NCBI RefSeq assembly: GCF_018101125.2
Contig: NZ_JAELVF020000001.1
Coordinates: 3,584,386-3,648,385 of the forward strand
From: Streptomyces tardus
GTDB lineage: Bacteria > Actinomycetota > Actinomycetes > Streptomycetales > Streptomycetaceae
Reading direction: 5' to 3'
DNA: 64,000 nt
Below, in pieces: positions 10,784 to 64,000 of this stretch. The notes under the pieces are model-generated. The model was not told the DNA's origin. It saw nothing but the letters and a program-made list of their open reading frames with translations, and made no database searches. Positions within the stretch are counted from its first letter, which is position 1; every line of letters begins with the position of its first letter. The position numbers and the translations under genes were made by a program.

Positions 10784-12439
10784 GTGGCGATCTTGGAAGC
10801 ACGCACCGAACTGCTCGACTCGCTGGTCGCGTTGCGCGATCGCGTCGCAGCCGCCAGCTTTCCGCTGCCGTTGACCGGCGCCCCGTACGCGCGGCGGTGC
10901 CGGTCCGAGCTGCTGGCCCAGCTCGACGACTACCTCGTGCCCAGGCTGCGAGATCCCGACGCGCCGCTGCTCGCGGTCGTCGCCGGATCGACCGGCGCAG
11001 GCAAGTCGACGCTCGTCAACTCCCTGGTGGGGCGGCGAATCACCGAGGCCGGCGTGCTCCGGCCCACCACCAGAACCCCGGTGCTGGTGTGCCACCCCGA
11101 CGACGCCCACTGGTTCGAGGGCCGTCGGGTGCTGCCGCGCCTCGCCCGGCTCAGCGCCGACCGCGAGCCGGGCACCGTCCTCCAACGGGCCGCCGACCGC
11201 ACCGACCCCTCGCCGCAGCCCGCAGGCACCCTCCAGCGCCCGCCCGCGGGCGAAAGCGGACCGGCGCTGCGGCTGGAGACCGACGAGGCGCTGCCCACCG
11301 GACTGGCGCTGCTCGACGCACCCGACATCGACTCCCTGGTTGCCGAGAACCGCGATCTCGCGGCCGAGCTGATCTGCGCCGCCGACATCTGGATCCTGGT
11401 CACCACCGCCGCCCGGTACGCAGACGCGGTGCCCTGGCATCTGCTGCGCGCGGCAAGGGAGTACGACGTCACGCTGGCCACCGTGCTCGACCGGGTGCCG
11501 CACCAGATCACCCATGAGGTCACCCGCCAGTACACCGCACTGCTGGAGCGGGCCGGGCTCGCCGGCATCCCGCGCTTCACCGTCCCCGAACTGCCCGAGT
11601 CGGCCGCCGGGAGCCGGGGGTTGCTGCCCGGCAGCGCCGTGGACTCGCTGCGGCACTGGCTGACCCACCTGGTCACCGATCCGCTCGCCCGCGAGGAGGC
11701 GGTGGGCCGTACGGCGGCCGGCGCGCTCGCCTCGCTGCGTTCTCGCGTCCCCGAACTCGCCGCCGGCGCCGCCGCACAGCATTCCGCAGCGCTGCGCCTC
11801 TCCCATCAGGTCGAGCTCGCCTACGCCGACGCCGGTCAGCGGGCGAAACTCCGGCTGAGCGAGGGCCGGTTGCTCGCCGGTGAGGCCTGGACGCACTGGC
11901 GCGGTTTCCCCACGGACACCGCGGGCGAGGAGCTGATGACCGCCTGCACCGACGGGTTGGCCGATCTGCTGGCGAACGCCGTGGGCGCCGCCGAGGAGCG
12001 GATCGTCGACTTCTGGCGGCGCGAACCGGGCGCGGTCGGACTGCCCGAGGACCCCTGCCTGGGCGCCGCGCCGACGGTGGAACGGATGGGCGTGGCCGTA
12101 CGCCACTGGCGGCGCTGCGTCGAGGAACTGGCCGAGGAGGCGTACCGGGCCGACGGCCGCGGCCCTGCGAACGGCGAGGAGACCGCGGCCCTGTTGGCCA
12201 CCACGCTGCTCGGCGGTGCCCAGGGGATCGCGGCGGGCGAGGCGTTGGCCGCGATCCTCACCGTGCCGCCGGCCGCCGCGTTGCGCGAACGCGGCGCCGA
12301 ACTGCTCACCGAGTGCGTGGATCGCGCCCTGCACGGCGAGCGGGACCGCCGACTCGCGCCGCTCCGGAAGCTCGACGCGGGACCGGAGCAGCAGGCCCGG
12401 CTCATCGCCGCACTGTCCGTACTGCACAAGGAGAGGTGA
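10784..12439 (+). CDS. dynA: Dynamin-like GTPase, first of pair (DynA-like)
   Basis: 551 residues from GTG 10784, where similarity to relatives appears to begin (TTG 10766 is an upstream alternative; neither has a clear ribosome site). G1 loop [17 protein letters not shown], switch region [14 protein letters not shown]3-like [10 protein letters not shown] and a degenerate G4 (TVLDRVP) mark a P-loop GTPase of the dynamin/YfjP class; the rest is mostly helical. In S. venezuelae the paired proteins DynA and DynB stabilise FtsZ ladders during sporulation septation; I assign this by architecture and pairing, not by search. The next gene starts 4 bp after the stop, so they form an operon. Confidence 0.7.
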
Positions 12440-13288
12440 CACGGTGTCCGGTTCGCTCGGCGACGTCCGTATCGAGGAACAGCACAGCGGCCAGAGCGCG
12501 GAGAGTGTCGGCGAAGAGCCGGACACCGCGACAGCGGCGCACGACCGGGAGACCGCCTCCTCGGGCGGGCCCGCCGGGCCGGGCGAGGACCCCCGGGGCC
12601 AGAACGCGTCGGCTGAGGTCGCGCGGGGCGAGGAGGGCGCGTCGGGGGGTGTGCGCCTGGCCTCCGGTTCCGACGTACCTCGCGTCGACGTACCTTGCGC
12701 CCCCGACGCACCGGGCGCACCCGACGTCCCGGCGGCCCTCGGTGTCCGCGTCGAACCCGCTGCTTCGGGAGCGGGCGTGTCCGTGGCGCGCGGGAGCGGT
12801 GACGCGGAGCGCGCCGGGCAGGCGGAGACGGAACACACCGTGGCCCGGCGGGAGGTACGCGCGGTCGCCGCGGGCGGTGCCCGGATCTCGGGCGGTGCTC
12901 CGGCATGGGACGACGGACTGATCGCCCGCCGCGCACGACCCGGTCCGGAGGAGACGCGGTCGCGGCCGGCCGCCGAACCGGGCGGGCGCGAGCAGGCGTC
13001 GGTGGCCGTGGGCCGGGTCGACGAGCCGGTTCAACTCCCGCTCGTCGAGGGAGAGGTGGGGCTCGGCGCGCCGGAACGGCCGACCGCGTCCGGCACCGGT
13101 ACGGCGCGACTCCCTTCCGCCGTACGCGGCCGAGTGCGGTCGCTGACCACGGAAGCGGCCCCGTACACCCCGGCGGTGGGCCCGCTGCCGCACGCCGCCG
13201 CCCCGGCTGACCCGGCGCGGGTGACAGCCGCGGCCCCGACGCACCCGTACCGCCCTGGCCCGGGCGGTACGGCGGATCTGGACCGCCC

Positions 13289-13380
13289 GGACCTGGGCCT
13301 TCCGGACGCGAGCCGCCCGGACTCGGGCCGCACGGTGGACCTGGGCCTTCCGGACGCGAGCCGCACGGACGCGGGCCGCC
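13289..13380 (+). repeat. Tandem repeat in the DynB low-complexity region
   Basis: Two adjacent ~48-bp units encode DLGLPDASRPDSGRTV and DLGLPDASRTDAGRPV. Natural-looking low-complexity expansion, in frame, and unrelated to the inverted repeat downstream. Confidence 0.75.
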
Positions 13381-13691
13381 CGGTGCACCCACCGCAGCAG
13401 GACCGCCGGGCCGTGACGGCCGTGGAGACGATCGTCGAGGGCGTGGGTTCCGAGGAGGCCCCCGTCGCGAACCCGGTTTCGCCGGACGCGACTTCCGGGC
13501 GCCCCGTCGTTGCGGACGAGACGGTGGCGCCTGCGACGGCCCCAGTGTCCGGGCCGGACCCCGCGGCACATCCGGCACCTCCGGCCCGTCCAGGAGACCC
13601 GGCCCCTCCGGAGACGCCCGCGTCGGCGGGAACGCCCGCGCGTCCGGAGGCGTTGCCCGGTCTCGAGGCGCCTACCGGCGGAGGCCTCCGG

Positions 13692-13818
13692 GTGCCGCCG
13701 CGTGCCCGTCGCCGCGCGCACCTGCGCGAGGGGAGCCATCGAGAGCTCGGCGGGCTCGTCCTCCTCGACCTGCCCGACCACGACTCGCTCGCCGAGGGCC
13801 ATCGTCAACAGGTCGACC
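13692..13818 (+). repeat. 127-bp direct copy of 14996-15122 inside dynB
   Basis: Identical by eye to 14996-15122 (offset 1304). It ends in the palindrome GGTCGACC (13811-13818), where the inverted arm starts with no spacer, so 13692-13937 is a 246-bp perfect palindrome. Confidence 0.9.
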
Positions 13819-14416
13819 TGTTGACGATGGCCCTCGGCGAGCGAGTCGTGGTCGGGCAGGTCGAGGAGGACGAGCCCGCCGAGCTCTCGATGGCTCCCCT
13901 CGCGCAGGTGCGCGCGGCGACGGGCACGCGGCGGCACGCCCAGGCGCTCCAGCAGGCCGTCGGCGCCACCGGTGCGTTCCGAGGTCTCCCACACGCACGC
14001 CACCGGCGTCGCCGTCGTCGGCCGGCGCACTCCCGCCTCCGAGAGTTGGGCGCCGGCCAGCGCGTTGAAGAGCGTCGACTTGCCGCACCCCGTCGGTCCG
14101 GCGACCGCCACCGTGGTGTGGGCGCGGGAGAGCCTGCCGCGCGCCGAGGCCTCGTCGAGCACCCGTACCGCCTCGGCAAGGCTGTCCGGCTCCAGTCGAG
14201 TCCTGGACAGCCCCACCAGTTCACGCAGGGCGAGGAGCCGGCGGCCGAGCCCCCGCTCGCCGCCCGGCGCCGCGGGACCCGCCCGACGCCCCGCCCGTGC
14301 GGGGGCTTCGGCGGGCATTTCGGGAACGGAGATCGACTGCGCGAACGGGGCCGTCAGCCGCTGCTCCTCGTCCTCCGCGGACTCGGCCGCAGGCGCCCTC
14401 TCCCATGCGTACGGGG
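13811..14416 (-). repeat. Left arm of a 606-bp inverted repeat in dynB
   Basis: Reverse complement of 14517-15122 (paired positions sum to 28933). Both arms encode the same first ~155 residues of a spurious ORF in opposite directions. The 100-bp centre 14417-14516, read on the minus strand, continues the DynB frame (PEPEVTLPERPV, VARDPYAGELSPLSG), so it is dynB sequence whose forward copy is missing. Confidence 0.92.
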
Positions 14417-14516
14417 CCGCTCCCGACAGGGGGGAGAGCTCCCCCGCGTACGGGTCGCGGGCCACCTGCTCCCGGACCGGGCGCTCGGGGAGGGTCACCT
14501 CGGGCTCGGGAGCGGA

Positions 14517-15122
14517 CCCCGTACGCATGGGAGAGGGCGCCTGCGGCCGAGTCCGCGGAGGACGAGGAGCAGCGGCTGACGGCCCCGTTCGCGCAGTCGA
14601 TCTCCGTTCCCGAAATGCCCGCCGAAGCCCCCGCACGGGCGGGGCGTCGGGCGGGTCCCGCGGCGCCGGGCGGCGAGCGGGGGCTCGGCCGCCGGCTCCT
14701 CGCCCTGCGTGAACTGGTGGGGCTGTCCAGGACTCGACTGGAGCCGGACAGCCTTGCCGAGGCGGTACGGGTGCTCGACGAGGCCTCGGCGCGCGGCAGG
14801 CTCTCCCGCGCCCACACCACGGTGGCGGTCGCCGGACCGACGGGGTGCGGCAAGTCGACGCTCTTCAACGCGCTGGCCGGCGCCCAACTCTCGGAGGCGG
14901 GAGTGCGCCGGCCGACGACGGCGACGCCGGTGGCGTGCGTGTGGGAGACCTCGGAACGCACCGGTGGCGCCGACGGCCTGCTGGAGCGCCTGGGCGTGCC
15001 GCCGCGTGCCCGTCGCCGCGCGCACCTGCGCGAGGGGAGCCATCGAGAGCTCGGCGGGCTCGTCCTCCTCGACCTGCCCGACCACGACTCGCTCGCCGAG
15101 GGCCATCGTCAACAGGTCGACC
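14517..15122 (+). repeat. Right arm of the 606-bp inverted repeat in dynB
   Basis: Forward-oriented copy that continues into the intact 3' half of dynB. At the inner junction a 9-bp microhomology CGGGAGCGG is shared between the end of the inverted segment and the true upstream sequence, with one extra A at 14516. Confidence 0.92.
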
Positions 15123-16658
15123 GGCTCCTCCAGTTGGTCGACGCGGTGATCTGGGTCGTCGACCCGGAGAAGTACGCCGACGCGGTGCTCCACGAGCGCT
15201 ATCTGCGACCGCTGGCGGGACACGCCGAGGTCACCTACGTGGTTCTCAACCAGGTCGACCGGCTGCCGGAGGAAGCCGCCGGTGAACTCCTCGACGACCT
15301 GCGCAGACTTCTCGACGAGGACGGCATGGCGCTCGGGGAGCACGGCGACCCGGGAGCGCAGGTGCTCTCCCTGTCCGCGCTCAGTGGCCAGGGCGTGTGC
15401 GAACTGCGCGAGGCGCTGGGCGAATTGGTGAGTCACCAGCTCGCCGCGGCCCGCCGGTTGGCCGCGGACGTGGACCGGGTCGTCGACGAACTGCGCCCGG
15501 TCTGCACGGGCGAGGGCAACGCGAGGCCGGAGGGGCTCACCGCCGAAGTGCGGGAGTCGTTCGAGGAGCGGCTGGCGGTGGCGGTCGGCGCGGCAGCCGC
15601 TGGACGCACCGCGGAACGGGCGTGGCTGCGTCAGGCCGATCTCGCCTGCGGCACCTCCTGGGCGGGACTGGCGCGTTGGCAGGTACGGCGCGCGGGAGCC
15701 CGCCGGGGCGAGAAGCCGGACGGCTGGGCGATGGGCGAGCAGCCCGCGAAGGACCGTACGAAGGCGGGCCGCCAGGGTCGGTCGGCGGCGCTTGCGGCGG
15801 TGGCACCGGCAGGAGGCGGGAGAGCGGAGGGCCCAGCAGGGGGCACGGAGCGACCGGGAGGCGGCAGCGTCGGTGGTGCGGGGGACCCCGGACCACAGCT
15901 GTCCGAGCACGGGCGTTGGGCGGCGGACCGTGGGTCCGCGTGCCAGGAGGCTACGGGTGGTTCCCCGGCCGACCGTGAGCTGTGGGAACCGCGTGGCGAT
16001 CGGCAGAGCACGGCCTGGGAGCAGCACACCGGCAGGCCGGTGGTCGAACAGGCGGTGCGCGGTTTGATGGACGACACCACGCGAGGGCTGCCCGCCGCGT
16101 GGGCGCGCGCCGTGTGGCACGCCGCTCGTACGGGTGGCGGAGGGCTGCCGGGCGCGCTCGACCGCGCGGTGGCGGGTGCGCGGCTGCCGGTGCGTCCGGT
16201 GCGTCCGCGCTGGTGGACGGCTGCTGCGGTCGGTCAGGTCCTGCTGCTGGCGTTTCAGCTGATCGGCGTGTGCTGGTTGCTCGGCGGGCTGCTGGCGGGC
16301 GGCATGGGCGCCGAACGGTGGCTCCCCTTCGGGCTGTTGGTCGCGGGTGCGCTGGGCGGGCCGGCGCTCGCCTGGGGTTGCCGGGTGGCGGCGCGCGGCC
16401 CGGCCAGGGCGTTCGGACTGGAGCAGGAGTCGCGATTGCGCCGTCTCGCGGCGGACTGCGGCCGAGGTCGGGTCCTGGAGCCGGTGGCGGCCGAGCTGTT
16501 GCGCTACACCGAGGCCCGGGAGCAGTACGTGGTGGCGGCGGGCGGGCCGGAAAGTGTCGGGCCGATGCGCTGAGCGCAGGGCGTCCCAGCCGGGAGACGG
16601 CTTAGCCCCCTGTGAGAACAGCGGGAAGCCGCGGGAGCAGTAGGAATCGGTGAGAGCG

Positions 16659-30036: not shown

Positions 30037-30833
30037 CCGCGTATGTCCCTCTTCCCCTCGGTACGCGTACAACCGGCCGCCGTGGCAGCGGAGTTCGGAA
30101 GAAGGGTCCGGCGCTTCCCCCGAGTGTCGGTCCGTCAGGCCGATCCTGCCCGCGTCCGCGGGCGCGGGAACGGCAGGAGCGCCACCGTTACGTTGTCGTG
30201 GCCCCCGCTGCGCAACGCGAAGTCGACCAGGTGCCGGGTGGCGGCGTACGGCGCGGTACGGGCGTCGCCCGGGACGGCGGCGGCCATCTCCGCGGCGGAC
30301 TCGGCGTAGTTCCACAGCCCGTCGGTGCAGACGACGACCACGCCGGTGCCCTCCGGGCTGAACGAGGCGGTGTGCGGCTCGACCTCGTAGGCGTCGGCGC
30401 CCAGCCAGCCGGTGATCGCGTGCGCGCGCGGGTCGGCGTACGCCTCGCTCTCCGGCATGAGGCCGGCGGCCACCATCTGCGCGGCCCAGGAGTCGTCCTC
30501 GGTCAGCCGGGAGGCCGGCGCGGAACGGTCGTCCGGGACCCAGTAGACACGGCTGTCTCCGACCCAGCCGACGGTGAGGACGTCCTCCACCACCACGGCA
30601 CCGACCAGGGTGCAGGCCGGGGAGTTCTGTTCGGGGTTGCGGTCGGACTCGGCGAGGGAGTTGACGGCGGCTCCGGCGCGCAGAATCGCGTCGTGCATGG
30701 CCTGCTCGGGCCGCGCTCCGGACGCGAGGTCGCCGCGCAGCGAGGCGCAGGCCGTACGTGCCGCCGCGGCCGACGCCTCGTCGGGCCGGGTCGAGGAGGA
30801 GACGCCGTCACAGACGACGGCGACGACTGCGTC

Positions 30834-31009
30834 CCGGCCGGTGGGCGTGACGCTGTGGGTGGCGGCGAAGAAGTCCTCGTTGCGGTGGTGGCGGTGGCCG
30901 CGGTCGCTGACCACGCAGACGCCGTCCAACTGCTCTTCCATGTGGTCCCGTTCGCGTGGCTGGGCATGGCCGCACCGCTCGCAGTAGCCGTCGCGGTGGA
31001 TTCCGGAAT
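30834..31009 (-). repeat. Source copy of the PP2C scramble
   Basis: 176-bp segment whose reverse complement occurs at 31262-31437 (paired positions sum to 62271). Its part 30887-31009 is also repeated directly at 31149-31271 (offset 262). It ends in ATTCCGGAAT. Confidence 0.9.
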
Positions 31010-31148
31010 GGTTGCAGGCGGGGCAGACGGTGCCACCGGCCGGTGGCGCGGTGGGAGCGGCGACCGGCCGGCCCTGCGGGGGTTCGGCGGGAGCCGACGC
31101 GGCCGACGCTGTGCCTGCGGGTCGGGGCCCGCCGGGGGAGTGGCACCC

Positions 31149-31473
31149 GGTGGCGGTGGCCGCGGTCGCTGACCACGCAGACGCCGTCCAACTGCTCTTC
31201 CATGTGGTCCCGTTCGCGTGGCTGGGCATGGCCGCACCGCTCGCAGTAGCCGTCGCGGTGGATTCCGGAATCCACCGCGACGGCTACTGCGAGCGGTGCG
31301 GCCATGCCCAGCCACGCGAACGGGACCACATGGAAGAGCAGTTGGACGGCGTCTGCGTGGTCAGCGACCGCGGCCACCGCCACCACCGCAACGAGGACTT
31401 CTTCGCCGCCACCCACAGCGTCACGCCCACCGGCCGGTGGCACCGTCTGCCCCGCCTGCAACAATTCCGGAAT
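31149..31473. repeat. Direct plus inverted copies inside the PP2C gene
   Basis: 31149-31271 is a direct copy of 30887-31009 entered through GGTGGCGGTGGC; at the palindrome ATTCCGGAAT (31262-31271) it turns into the inverted copy to 31437; through CCGGCCGG it jumps to an inverted copy of 31011-31042 (to 31462) and turns again at a second ATTCCGGAAT (31464-31473). A 48-bp direct repeat (31113-31160 and 31580-31627) flanks the set. Confidence 0.88.
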
Positions 31474-32111
31474 GGTTGCAGGCGGGGCAGACGGTGCCAC
31501 AGGCCGGTGGCGCGGTGGGCCGAACTGCCCGGCCGGCCGTCCCGCGGGGGGCGCGCCCCCGGTCTCACGGGGGCGCTTCGCCTGCGGGTCGGGGCCCGCC
31601 GGGGGAGTGGCACCCGGTGGCGGTGGCGGCGGCGGTACCGGCCCTCCGGCGCGGCCGGCCGCGGAGGGCGCGGGACCGTACCCGCCGGACTGCCCGCGGT
31701 CCGGCGGGTGTTGTTCCGCCGGCCGGTCCACCGGACCGTGTCCGCCGGGCTGTCGGTGCTGCTCGGGATGCGGAGGCTGCGCCCGGTGCTGCTGCGGTGA
31801 GGCCGGGGCCGCGCTCGGGCGAGGCGGGTGCGGTGGTGTGCCCGGCGCGTCCGGCGGAACCGAGAAATCCGTCAACGTCGGTGTGGGAACGCCCGGTTGG
31901 GGCGGGCCGGGCCCGGGCGCGGGGCGCGCCCCCGACGGCTGCGGAGCCTGCACGGGTGTCCCGGAGGCGGGTGTCGGTGGAACGGGTGTTCCGGAGGCGA
32001 CCGGGCGGGGCGCGGTCAGATCGGTGCCGCAGACCCCGCAGAAGCGGTCGCCCTCTTCGAACGGCTCGGCGCAGCTGGGGCAGGTGGAGACTTGTTCGAG
32101 CTGCGGCATCG

Positions 32112-35072
32112 TCACACCCATGTCCTGGGGCGGAAGCGGTTGGCGCGTTCCACCCATTCGATCCTTTCGGTACCGCTTGTCGCCAGTCGGGCGAGAGTGC
32201 GGCAGGACTTCTCCAGTCCGAGCCGCAACCCCTCCTGCTCCAGCGGACAGCCCAGCACAGAACGGATCTGCCCGGGGCCGGGGTTCGGGGGAGCGCCGTG
32301 TCGCCCCGCGAGAACCCAGTCAAGCGCACTGCCCAGCACCTCGGTCGTCAGCCGCTCCCGACGGGGCGCGTCCACACCGAGGGCGTCCAACTCCTCGACC
32401 TGCTCCGCCGCCGCGTACAGATCGGTCAGCAGGTCGTCCTGCGGGTCGCGTTCGCGCAGTCTCGCGGCCACGGCGGCGACCCGTGCAGAAAGATAGTGGA
32501 TGGAGGTCTGCGGCACCGACTCCAGAGCGGCCACGGCCCCCTGCCGGTCGCCGGAGGCCAGCAGCACCCGCGCCCAACCGAACGCGCTGCTCACGTAGTT
32601 GCGGTTGGCGGACCACACCAGACGGTAGTACTCGGCGGCGTTGTCGAGCTGGCCGAGCATCTCGGCGCAGACCGCGAGCGCGAGCTTGGGCGCCGGCTCG
32701 CCGGGGAACGCGTCGTAGACCGCGTCGAAGGAGTGCGCGGAAGTGTCCCGGTCGCCCTTGGTCAGGGCGACCAGACCGCGGTACCACACGACCCGCCAGT
32801 CCTCCCCGTGCTCGCTCTCCAGATCGGCCACGATCTCGTTCACCGCGGCGGCGGACTCCGGGTCCCGGTCGGCGAGTTCGAGCCGGGCCCGCAGCCGGCG
32901 CAGCTGCACCTCCAGCGAGTCGACCGGGACCTCCTCCAACGCCGGGAGCACGTCGTGCGGTTCGGCGTTCAGCAGCCCCAGCACAAAGGTGGCGCTGGGG
33001 TCCCGCATGTCGATACGGGGCACCGGCAGCGCGAGAGCGGTGGCGCGGATGCGCAGCGGGACCAGGGGCGGCGCGCCCGCGACCGGCTCCCGCGCGACGG
33101 GCGAGGAGGCGCGCAGCTGGTGGGGGAGGCGTACGTGGGCCGGGGTCTGGCCGTAGGAGTACGTCGCCGGATCGTCGGCGGTCGTCGGATCGGCGGACTC
33201 GGGCGCGGGTGACTCGGGTGCGGGCTCTGGTGCGGGCTCGGACGCGGCGAAGTCCGGTGCGCCGGGCGGGTGTTCGGACGGCGCGAGCGCCTTCTCGCCC
33301 ACCGGCTGCAGCTGCTCGCCGCCGCCCCCGCCGGGATGCTCGGCCGGGCGCCCGGAGACCGGGACCCCCGTTGCCGCCGCCTGCTCGGAGGACTGGGCCG
33401 GCACACCACCGGACGGGATCGCCTGCCGCTCGGCCGACTGCGGGAGCGAGCCGGTCGCCTCGGCCCGCGGGGACGCGCCGGCGGGCAGCTCCGCGGAGGC
33501 GGCGGCGCCCGGCGACTGGGCCGCCGGCGTCGGTGCCAGCTCCGGGCGGTCGGCCCGCCGCCAGCCGAACCGTCGCCGGGAGCGCTGCACCCGGGAGCCC
33601 AGCGTCGAGGCGTCGCCGCGGGGCGGGCTGAGCAAGTCGGTGTCCACCAGGCGGGTCTCGGGGCCGAAGAGCCGGGAGGCGGCGGGCCTGGGCTTGCCGG
33701 TCTGGAGGGCCACGACCTCGCGCAGCACCCCGGTCAGCTGGTCGGCCATCTCCTCGGCGGAGGCGAACCGCCGCCCGGGGTCGGGGTCGGTGGCACGCGC
33801 CAGCAGACGGTAGAACGACTCGTACCGCTGGAAGATGCCGATGCTCTCCGGCGGCGGCAGGCTGTCGCGGTAGACCGTGGTGAAGCCCTGGAAGTCGAAG
33901 GTCAGCACGGCCAGGGTGCGCGCGACGGTGTAGAGGTCGGAGGCGACCGAGGCGCCTTGCTCGGCGACCTCGGGGGCCTGGTAGCCGACGGTGCCGTATA
34001 TCGCGCTGTCGTCGTCGCCCGTCCGCCGGACCGCGCCCATGTCGATCAGCTTGAGCTGGTGGTTCTGCTGGATCGCGTTGTCGACCTTGAAGTCGCAGTA
34101 GAGCAGTCCGCGGCTGTGCAGATAGCCGAGCGCCTCCAGCGCGTCGATGCCGTAGGCGCAGGCCTGCTCCACCGGCAGCGGCTCCCGGCGACCCTCGGGG
34201 GTGAGACGTTCGTTGGCGAGCTGCTTGAGGGACTTGCCGCCGATGTACTCCATGACGATGTAGCCGTCGACGCTGCCGGTGCGCGGATCGTGGTGCTCCA
34301 CGAAGTTGTACACCCGCACGATGCTGGAGTGCTCGATCTCCGAGAGGAAGTGGCGTTCGGAGATCGCGACCGCCATGGCGTCCTGGTCGGCGGTGTCCAG
34401 CAGGCCCTTGAGCACGACCCAGCGGCCGTTCAGCGGGCGGTCGATGGCCAGATAGATCCAGCCGAGACCGCCGTGCGCAAGACAACCGGCGATCTCGTAC
34501 TGCCCGTTGATCACATCGCCGCGGTTCAGTTTGGGGGTGAAGGAGTACGGCTGGCCGCACTTGGTGCAGAAGCCCTCGGTACGCCCCGGGCGGCCCTTGC
34601 GCGACCGGCCCACCGAGCTGCCGCACTCGCCGTTGCTGCAGAAGCGCTTGCGCTCGGGCACCTCGGGGTCGGCCATCACCTCCGTCGTCGGGACGGGGGC
34701 CGGCACTTCCGGCACGGTCACCAGCCCCGCGCCCAACCGTTTGCGCGCCGAGGACGAGCCGTCGGTGGTGCTGCGGGAGCCGCGCACCGAGACGGCCGGT
34801 ACGGAGCCCGCGCCGCTCGACGAGCCCGACAGCCGTCCGGAGACCGAACGGTGCGAGGAGGACCCGGGTCCCGTCCCCGTCGACGCCGACGAGCCGGTCC
34901 TGCCGGTACCGGCCCCCTCCGCCACCACTCCGGTCGCGGGCGAGCCGAGCGCGCCGAGCCCGGAGACCGGGGGTGGGAACCCGCAGACGTCGCAGTACTG
35001 CTCGTCGTCCCCGAAGTCCTCGTAGGAGCCCTCGCAGTGGGATTGCTGGCAGCCCGTCGACAGTGAGCTCAT
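32112..35072 (-). CDS. pknG: Serine/threonine protein kinase PknG
   Basis: 986 residues from ATG 35072 (ATGA overlap with the upstream stop). N-terminal ribbon (Cys8, Cys27, Cys30), Ser/Gly-rich linker, then a rubredoxin-like centre with Cys145, Cys150, Cys169, Cys172 (GFCTKCGQPYSFTPKL), kinase domain ~190-460 with GCLAHGGLGWIYLAID, Lys222 in VVLKGLLD, catalytic LLYCDFKVDN (Asp327) and IDMGAVRR (DFG equivalent), and a C-terminal TPR region (~700-986, e.g. WRVVWYRGLVALTKGD). This order is specific to PknG; the lack of the usual HRD is typical of it. A Pro/Ala-rich insert of ~230 residues lies between kinase and TPR. In mycobacteria it is soluble and controls glutamate/2-oxoglutarate metabolism through GarA. 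Confidence 0.95.
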   Translation of the reverse strand: MSSLSTGCQQSHCEGSYEDFGDDEQYCDVCGFPPPVSGLGALGSPATGVVAEGAGTGRTGSSASTGTGPGSSSHRSVSGRLSGSSSGAGSVPAVSVRGSRSTTDGSSSARKRLGAGLVTVPEVPAPVPTTEVMADPEVPERKRFCSNGECGSSVGRSRKGRPGRTEGFCTKCGQPYSFTPKLNRGDVINGQYEIAGCLAHGGLGWIYLAIDRPLNGRWVVLKGLLDTADQDAMAVAISERHFLSEIEHSSIVRVYNFVEHHDPRTGSVDGYIVMEYIGGKSLKQLANERLTPEGRREPLPVEQACAYGIDALEALGYLHSRGLLYCDFKVDNAIQQNHQLKLIDMGAVRRTGDDDSAIYGTVGYQAPEVAEQGASVASDLYTVARTLAVLTFDFQGFTTVYRDSLPPPESIGIFQRYESFYRLLARATDPDPGRRFASAEEMADQLTGVLREVVALQTGKPRPAASRLFGPETRLVDTDLLSPPRGDASTLGSRVQRSRRRFGWRRADRPELAPTPAAQSPGAAASAELPAGASPRAEATGSLPQSAERQAIPSGGVPAQSSEQAAATGVPVSGRPAEHPGGGGGEQLQPVGEKALAPSEHPPGAPDFAASEPAPEPAPESPAPESADPTTADDPATYSYGQTPAHVRLPHQLRASSPVAREPVAGAPPLVPLRIRATALALPVPRIDMRDPSATFVLGLLNAEPHDVLPALEEVPVDSLEVQLRRLRARLELADRDPESAAAVNEIVADLESEHGEDWRVVWYRGLVALTKGDRDTSAHSFDAVYDAFPGEPAPKLALAVCAEMLGQLDNAAEYYRLVWSANRNYVSSAFGWARVLLASGDRQGAVAALESVPQTSIHYLSARVAAVAARLRERDPQDDLLTDLYAAAEQVEELDALGVDAPRRERLTTEVLGSALDWVLAGRHGAPPNPGPGQIRSVLGCPLEQEGLRLGLEKSCRTLARLATSGTERIEWVERANRFRPRTWV

Positions 35073-62382: not shown

Positions 62383-63336
62383 ATGAGTTTCAACCAGCCG
62401 CCGCCGGGTCCGTACGGTCAGCAGCCGCAGGGGGGCGCGCCGGGGCAGCCGGGGTACGGCTACCCGCAGCAGCCGCAGGCGCCCGGCCCGTACGGCCAGC
62501 CGCAACAGGGCGGTTACGGCCAGCAGCCCGGCCCGTACGGCCAGCAGCAGCCCGGTCCCGGCTACCCGCAGCAGCCCGGCCCGTACGGTCAGCAGCCCTA
62601 CGGCCAGCAGCCGGGCCCGTACGGCCAGCCCGGCCCGTACGGTCAGCCCGGTGTCCCGACGCCGCCTCCTGCCGGCGGTGGCAAGGGCAAGACGATCGGC
62701 ATCGTGATCGGCGCCGTGGTCGTGGTCGGAGCCATCATCGGCGGCATCGTGCTCGCCACCGGCGGCGACGACGAGGGCGGCGGCGGCAGCAGCGCGGTCG
62801 AGGACGACGGCGCGCACAAGCTCCAACTGCCCCAGTCCGTCGGCGAGTTCAAGCAGCAGCCCGGCGGCTCCGAGGGCGCTTCCGCGGTGCAGAAGGAGGC
62901 GGAGCGGATCGGCGTCAAGAACGCCCAGGCCGTGTCGGGCAGTTACTCCAACCTCGACCCCGGCAGCCCGCCCGACCCGAGCTCGGCGGGGAACATGGCA
63001 GTGATCCAGTTCGACGGTGCCTGGGGCGAGATCGACGACCCCGCCACGGCACTGGACAAGCTTCTGAAGGACGACACCGCGGGCAAGCAGGGCGTCCAGC
63101 TCGAGGGCAGCCCGAAGGAAGCCAGCCCCGACGGGCTCGACGGCGCGGTGATGAAGTGCCAGACGGCGAAGTTCACCCAGCAGGAGGCGGCGGGCAGCAC
63201 CGCCGTCATGTGCGGCTGGGCCGACAAGAGCACCGTCGGGCAGGTGGTCATGCTGCGGCCGGGCGGTTCCGTCAGCCAGGAGGAGACTGCCAAGAACGCC
63301 GCCGAGCTGCGCAAGGCCGCGCGCGTCAAGCAGTGA
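62383..63336 (+). CDS. Pro/Gly/Gln-rich single-span membrane protein, first paralogue
   Basis: 317 residues from ATG 62383 (GAGGGAAGCGCC upstream). Residues 1-~100 are PYGQ/PGQ repeats (e.g. QPGPYGQQPYGQQPGPYG), then GKGKTIGIVIGAVVVVGAIIGGIVLA as the membrane span and a folded extracytoplasmic C-domain (HKLQLPQSVGEFKQQ, MAVIQFDGAWGEIDDP, MKCQTAKFTQQ, VMCGWADKSTVGQVVML) with two Cys that could pair. Common actinobacterial type of unknown function; the proline-rich head may bind cytoplasmic partners. The following gene is a paralogue. Confidence 0.85.
   Translation: MSFNQPPPGPYGQQPQGGAPGQPGYGYPQQPQAPGPYGQPQQGGYGQQPGPYGQQQPGPGYPQQPGPYGQQPYGQQPGPYGQPGPYGQPGVPTPPPAGGGKGKTIGIVIGAVVVVGAIIGGIVLATGGDDEGGGGSSAVEDDGAHKLQLPQSVGEFKQQPGGSEGASAVQKEAERIGVKNAQAVSGSYSNLDPGSPPDPSSAGNMAVIQFDGAWGEIDDPATALDKLLKDDTAGKQGVQLEGSPKEASPDGLDGAVMKCQTAKFTQQEAAGSTAVMCGWADKSTVGQVVMLRPGGSVSQEETAKNAAELRKAARVKQ
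62404..62503 (+). repeat. 100-bp sequence repeated at 63506-63605
   Basis: Identical by eye at offset 1102, encoding the same PYGQ-type stretch in both paralogues; a recent conversion or duplication between the two genes. Confidence 0.85.
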
Positions 63337-63430: not shown

Positions 63431-64000
63431 ATGAGTTTCAACTCCCCGCCGCCGCAGGGCCCGTACGGGCAGCAGCCGGGCCCGTACGGTCCGCCGCAGG
63501 GCCAGCCGGGTCCGTACGGTCAGCAGCCGCAGGGGGGCGCGCCGGGGCAGCCGGGGTACGGCTACCCGCAGCAGCCGCAGGCGCCCGGCCCGTACGGCCA
63601 GCCGCCCCAGGGCGACTACCCGCCGCCGAAGTCCGGCGGCAACACCAAGGCGATAGCCATCGCGGTCGGCGCCGTCGCGCTGGTCGCGGCGATCGTCGCC
63701 GGCGCCGTCATCGCCACCGGCGGCAAGGACGGATCCGAGGACGGGAACAAGGCGGAGTCCGGCAACTCCGCGGGCACGGACGGTTCGGACGGCTCCAAGG
63801 GTGCCGACGCGGCGGCCGTGGACGACGGTCCGCACAAGCTGGAACCGCCCACCACTCTGGGCGAGTTGACTCGCAGCCCGCAGAGCGAGTCCCGGTTCGG
63901 CGGCCCGAGCGACAACTTCGAGGACACCGTCAAGCAGTCCGGCGTGCAGAACCCGCAGTTCGCCGCAGGCTTCTACCAGTCGGAGGGCATGTCCGACCCC
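63431..64000 (+). CDS. Pro/Gly/Gln-rich single-span membrane protein, second paralogue (partial)
   Basis: 190 codons from ATG 63431, cut by the window end. Same layout as the preceding gene: SFNSPPPQGPYGQQPGPYG head, NTKAIAIAVGAVALVAAIVAGAVIA membrane segment (given as AIAVGAVALVAAIVAGAV), an acidic Gly/Ser linker, then HKLEPPTTLGELTRSP, the counterpart of HKLQLPQSVGEFKQQP. No good ribosome site (CAGCCACCTC). Tandem duplication with the upstream gene is likely. Confidence 0.83.
   Translation, partial: MSFNSPPPQGPYGQQPGPYGPPQGQPGPYGQQPQGGAPGQPGYGYPQQPQAPGPYGQPPQGDYPPPKSGGNTKAIAIAVGAVALVAAIVAGAVIATGGKDGSEDGNKAESGNSAGTDGSDGSKGADAAAVDDGPHKLEPPTTLGELTRSPQSESRFGGPSDNFEDTVKQSGVQNPQFAAGFYQSEGMSDP

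Follow-up and report, generated by a model that had tools for sequence, protein, structure and literature searches.

The window analyzed here, a 64,000-nt stretch of the Streptomyces tardus contig NZ_JAELVF020000001.1, carries on its minus strand a PP2C phosphatase gene of the pknG operon that contains a mosaic of repeated segments, which we verified base for base in the sequence file. Read along the minus strand, the gene runs from a first zinc ribbon and a proline-rich linker (start at 32157) through a second zinc ribbon to the PP2C domain (PP2C_2). The start-side frame (from 32157) is offset by one base from the phosphatase frame (30135-31229), as the initial annotation had claimed, and omission of 31065-31533 does give a single 518-aa frame with no internal stop. 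This join is one possible join among others and is not proven. The living bacterium most likely has one uninterrupted PP2C gene. The features of the locus are as follows.

30135..32157, minus strand: assembled form of the pknG-operon gene for the PP2C phosphatase (Pfam PP2C_2, PP2C)
30834..31009, plus strand: segment A, continuous with the phosphatase domain and ending in the palindrome ATTCCGGAAT (31000-31009)
31010..31055, plus strand: segment B, which follows A without a break and is the first half of the second zinc ribbon
31056..31112, plus strand: linker piece U, uncopied elsewhere in the locus except for the short word CCGGCCGGCC
31113..31160, plus strand: segment C, an exact 48-nt copy of 31580-31627
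31149..31271, plus strand: second direct A (equal to 30887-31009), joined to C via the 12-nt GGTGGCGGTGGC
31262..31437, minus strand: inverted A (reverse complement of 30834-31009), with the turn at ATTCCGGAAT
31427..31462, minus strand: inverted B (31011-31046), joined to inverted A via the 11-nt CCACCGGCCGG
31464..31519, plus strand: second direct B with the palindrome (55/56), another turn at ATTCCGGAAT
31520..31579, plus strand: linker piece V, without significant alignment to U
31580..31627, plus strand: segment C, in the copy that runs on into the start side of the gene

Within the mosaic a 176-nt segment of the gene is duplicated, 123 nt of it in direct orientation and all 176 nt inverted, and flanking pieces of 36-59 nt are likewise copied. 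With P denoting the palindrome ATTCCGGAAT, the order on the plus strand is A, B, U, C, A again, inverted A, inverted B, P, B again, V, C and the remainder of the gene. Segment A (30834-31009) is found inverted at 31262-31437 with 176 of 176 nt identical, its portion 30887-31009 is directly repeated at 31149-31271 (123/123), and 31149-31384 forms a perfect palindrome of 236 bp without a spacer. The smaller pieces are 31011-31046, inverted at 31427-31462 (36/36), 31000-31055, directly repeated at 31464-31519 (55/56), and 31107-31165, repeated at 31574-31632 with 95% identity. The copies share joining words of 10-12 nt, two of which are the palindrome itself: GGTGGCGGTGGC at 31149-31160, ATTCCGGAAT at 31262-31271 and again at 31464-31473, and CCACCGGCCGG at 31427-31437. 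All three products that can be formed around P, namely A-P-B, A-P-A' and B'-P-B, are present at this locus.

The segments agree with the initial annotation, as do most of its junction words, but its description of the copies as alternately direct and inverted does not strictly hold, since the order across the mosaic is direct, direct, inverted, inverted, direct. It had further taken 31071-31112 to be unique and the original arrangement to be uncertain; the uncertainty stands, while the copy-free extent is larger, with no copy found elsewhere for 31065-31112 or for 31520-31533. The original linker is therefore unreadable from the sequence. A reconstruction by aligning U with V was rejected, as the alignment is no better than those of shuffled sequences and both pieces keep the frames one base out.

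Homologous loci in other genomes

Protein and DNA searches provided 132 homologous loci outside the S. tardus genome, a few of which are repeat fetches of one genome. In six-frame translation 128 of these show a single occurrence of the zinc-ribbon motif and the other four show no match to the motif used, compared with three occurrences in the assembled window. The PP2C mosaic was found in none of the 132 loci, and inverted repeats are not conserved among them. The nearest relatives found, with 78% DNA identity over this stretch, are of other species. The initial annotation had named homologues with the same mosaic as what would refute its reading, and such sharing with relatives was rejected (0 of the 132 loci).

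The homologous loci of other species, 0.86 Mb in total, contain two inverted repeats of at least 40 nt. One lies in the draft of Streptomyces sp. sk2.1 (L087:3857-3950), which has a 70-nt inverted copy of its own zinc ribbon between two single Ns; this copy sits in the same PP2C linker together with a 22-nt inverted piece, and it resembles the S. tardus mosaic as an apparent assembly fault of like kind in a different genome. The other, exact over 84 nt, lies where a contig in the draft of Streptomyces sp. A0958 begins (L101:1-244).

Recurrence across the assembly

Two further structures of S. tardus are listed here, the first of them in the window.

13692..15122, no strand assigned: the second such mosaic, lying within a GTPase gene, with 127 nt direct and inverted arms of 606 nt
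L143:14402-15167 (contig C2 54402-55167): 766-bp perfect palindrome without a spacer

The inverted arms of the GTPase-gene mosaic are exact over their 606 nt with a 100-nt spacer between them, and the mosaic includes a perfect 246-bp palindrome that turns at GGTCGACC. Relatives have a single copy at this locus, and the longest match spans the forward copy and its right-hand flank. Joining 12216-13691, the reverse complement of 14417-14516, and 14517-16573 produces one frame of 1210 aa. Since this frame is restored from unique pieces in order, the flanking gene is undecayed. Elsewhere in the window, 62403-62503 and 63505-63605 form an exact 101-nt direct repeat about 1.1 kb apart.

At the level of the genome, 19 clusters of exact inverted repeats of at least 40 nt occur in 1.46 Mb of S. 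tardus sequence. The frequency of scrambling is approximately 1 per 80 kb sampled, which extrapolates to some 80 inverted insertions per genome. Exact inverted repeats of at least 60 nt number 21.4 per Mb in S. tardus vs. 0 in the 0.8 Mb taken from four other Streptomyces, where none was found within 1.5 kb. It is clear from this absence that the PP2C mosaic is not a chance structure; mosaics recur at unrelated sites of the same assembly and not in comparable genomes. The clusters lie in or adjoin unrelated genes (transporters, PhoX, an ABC exporter, GTPase and PP2C) as well as spacers, their copies are mostly 100% identical at all sites, and the perfect palindromes without a spacer include ones of 766 bp and 630 bp. 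Even if the copies may lie as far as 30 kb from each other, the longest arm is 763 nt, so that arm length is limited to the scale of fragments. The G+C fraction of the clusters (0.747 vs. 0.711) exceeds that of 2000 random draws.

The junctions are also alike from site to site. Overlaps of 10-12 nt make up 17 of 33, with both the median and the mode at 10 nt, and the turning points show short palindromes or small loops. Several clusters follow a plan in which X-hairpin-X' is succeeded by Y'-hairpin-Y with an overlap of 10-13 nt between the two (contig C2, 1211123-1212435 and 1286718-1288852, for example), and the PP2C locus shares this plan, A-P-A' and B'-P-B being joined over 11 nt. At such sites it is adjacent sequence, inverted, that is joined at short inverted repeats or palindromes. 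The segments reported by the initial annotation are present in the assembly. What it lacks is that the mosaic is no peculiarity of the PP2C gene: fold-back mosaics occur across the assembly (the second at 13692-15122) and barely elsewhere, which points to an origin in how the sequence was made and not in the PP2C gene.

Origin of the mosaics

On the strength of these sequence comparisons, the PP2C mosaic is very probably artefactual, produced by library making or amplification in combination with assembly. G+C-rich single strands whose ends fall on or close to a short palindrome or inverted repeat would fold back and prime themselves, and in this manner a true A-P-B, with P being ATTCCGGAAT, would yield the fold-back molecules A-P-A' and B'-P-B. 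At places of low true coverage, these fragments may have been chained during assembly or gap filling via chance overlaps of about 10-12 nt (CCACCGGCCGG and GGTGGCGGTGGC), and the outcome in the assembled gene would be added direct and inverted pieces and a break of the frame. The copies, their junction words, the recurrence across the genome and the absence from homologues are observed; the folding back in vitro and the joining in assembly are inferred, as is which step acted here.

An artefact is the most likely origin since the mode of 10 nt for the junction words, arms of at most 763 nt, the high G+C and the recoverable frames (including the 1210-aa frame restorable in the second mosaic of the window) all fit, and since all three products around P coexist at the PP2C locus. 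It is further favored by the contrast between 19 clusters in 1.46 Mb here and no repeat of at least 60 nt in four other Streptomyces, by the 128 of 132 homologous loci with one zinc-ribbon motif and none with the mosaic, by the inverted copy beside Ns in L087 and the repeat at a contig start in L101, and by published precedents. Fold-back chimeras have been described at short inverted repeats and palindromes in library preparation (PMC10908179), chimeras from MDA are 85% inverted with priming words of 2-21 nt (PMC1855051), and palindromes from amplification have found their way into an assembly (PMC6218980). The library chimeras of the PDSM model resemble the S. tardus mosaics in being local inverted copies at short inverted repeats or palindromes and in having small mismatches near the junctions, but they were seen in human short reads whereas ours stand in a bacterial assembly consensus, with arms of up to hundreds of nt and several turns chained (PMC10908179). 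The MDA chimeras and WGA palindromes are likewise mostly inverted, local and primed by short complementary words, and the latter were reported as inverted duplications in an assembly; the junction words in S. tardus differ in peaking at 10-12 nt (PMC1855051, PMC6218980). Our search of the literature on such a fault in Streptomyces assemblies found nothing fitting. Against an artefact, fold-back chimeras usually make up a minor share of the reads, which leaves unexplained why the consensus follows them at about 80 places (extrapolated), and linker pieces U and V are not accounted for as copies.

The junction chemistry, with priming over 10-12 nt and turns at palindromes, would look identical if template switching had folded back at short palindromes in vivo, recently and genome-wide, leaving dozens of inverted insertions of which one breaks PP2C; the clusters are indeed numerous and all local. 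We consider such switching, whether by hairpin-primed replication or by a microhomology-mediated route, unlikely. Mostly identical copies would require dozens of events to have occurred together very recently, the ceiling on arm length below 0.8 kb is expected for fragments and not for chromosomes, the copy in L087 presents a like case next to assembly Ns, and some 80 fresh perfect insertions (extrapolated) in or by unrelated genes would be extraordinary. Perfect palindromes of 766 bp and 630 bp without a spacer would be difficult to maintain, which also speaks against an origin in the cell; in SbcCD+ recA- E. coli a length of 246 bp is already lethal (PMC3315005). In favor of such an origin, the chromosome of E. 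coli tolerates an interrupted palindrome of 246 bp (PMC3315005). In E. coli sbcDC recA mutants the copying of hairpin-capped ends gives palindrome-centered inverted duplications, a likeness to the S. tardus mosaics, although in those repair mutants the duplicated stretches of chromosome are large while here the arms are below 0.8 kb, there are many per genome, and the SbcCD genes are open (PMC3315005). The absence or breakage of the hairpin nuclease SbcCD, by which long palindromes might persist, was rejected on the latter grounds: sbcD scores above its cut-off with an open frame of 517 aa, and the adjoining sbcC-like gene is one open frame of 1255 aa that scores under the curated cut-off, which is also true of 13 of 14 controls. 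It is unlikely that dozens of fresh insertions from fold-back template switching, primed over 10-12 nt and including palindromes of several hundred bp, are real in a Streptomyces strain whose SbcCD genes are open, and that one of them inactivates PP2C in the pknG operon.

An older or functional local rearrangement of the PP2C zinc ribbon, programmed or selected as in phase variation, could draw on the slight differences between copies (95-98% for B and C) but is hardly credible given that identity is 100% in the copies of 176 and 123 nt, that the same structure stands in unrelated genes and spacers genome-wide, and that every homologue is without it. Searched against the entire genome, the mosaic returned no copy beyond the locus, which counts against such a rearrangement and led us to reject a mobile element or repeat family as well.

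If the mosaics are artefacts as we favor, a genome scored as 100% complete and 0% contaminated contains about 80 false inverted insertions (extrapolated), which break genes and create false open frames, and this matters to users of the genome. The mosaic itself is then of low importance except as a warning on the S. tardus assembly; assemblies of this kind can be flagged simply by scanning for exact inverted repeats of at least 60 nt within 1.5 kb. Were the mosaics real, they would represent extreme template switching and palindrome tolerance.

N runs and contig ends

The N runs in the S. tardus assembly may be scaffold gaps or operator masking. An enrichment of clusters near them was rejected as too weak, with 3 of 16 clusters within 2.5 kb vs. 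about 0.9 expected from simple arithmetic, a comparison in which N may stand for masking. Long inverted repeats are present at one of the six readable contig ends checked, and the tiny contigs read N. At that end, the start of contig C5 (L252:217-3537), there are exact inverted repeats of 459, 146, 67 and 36 nt, which lie in a polyketide-synthase-like region and may be natural.
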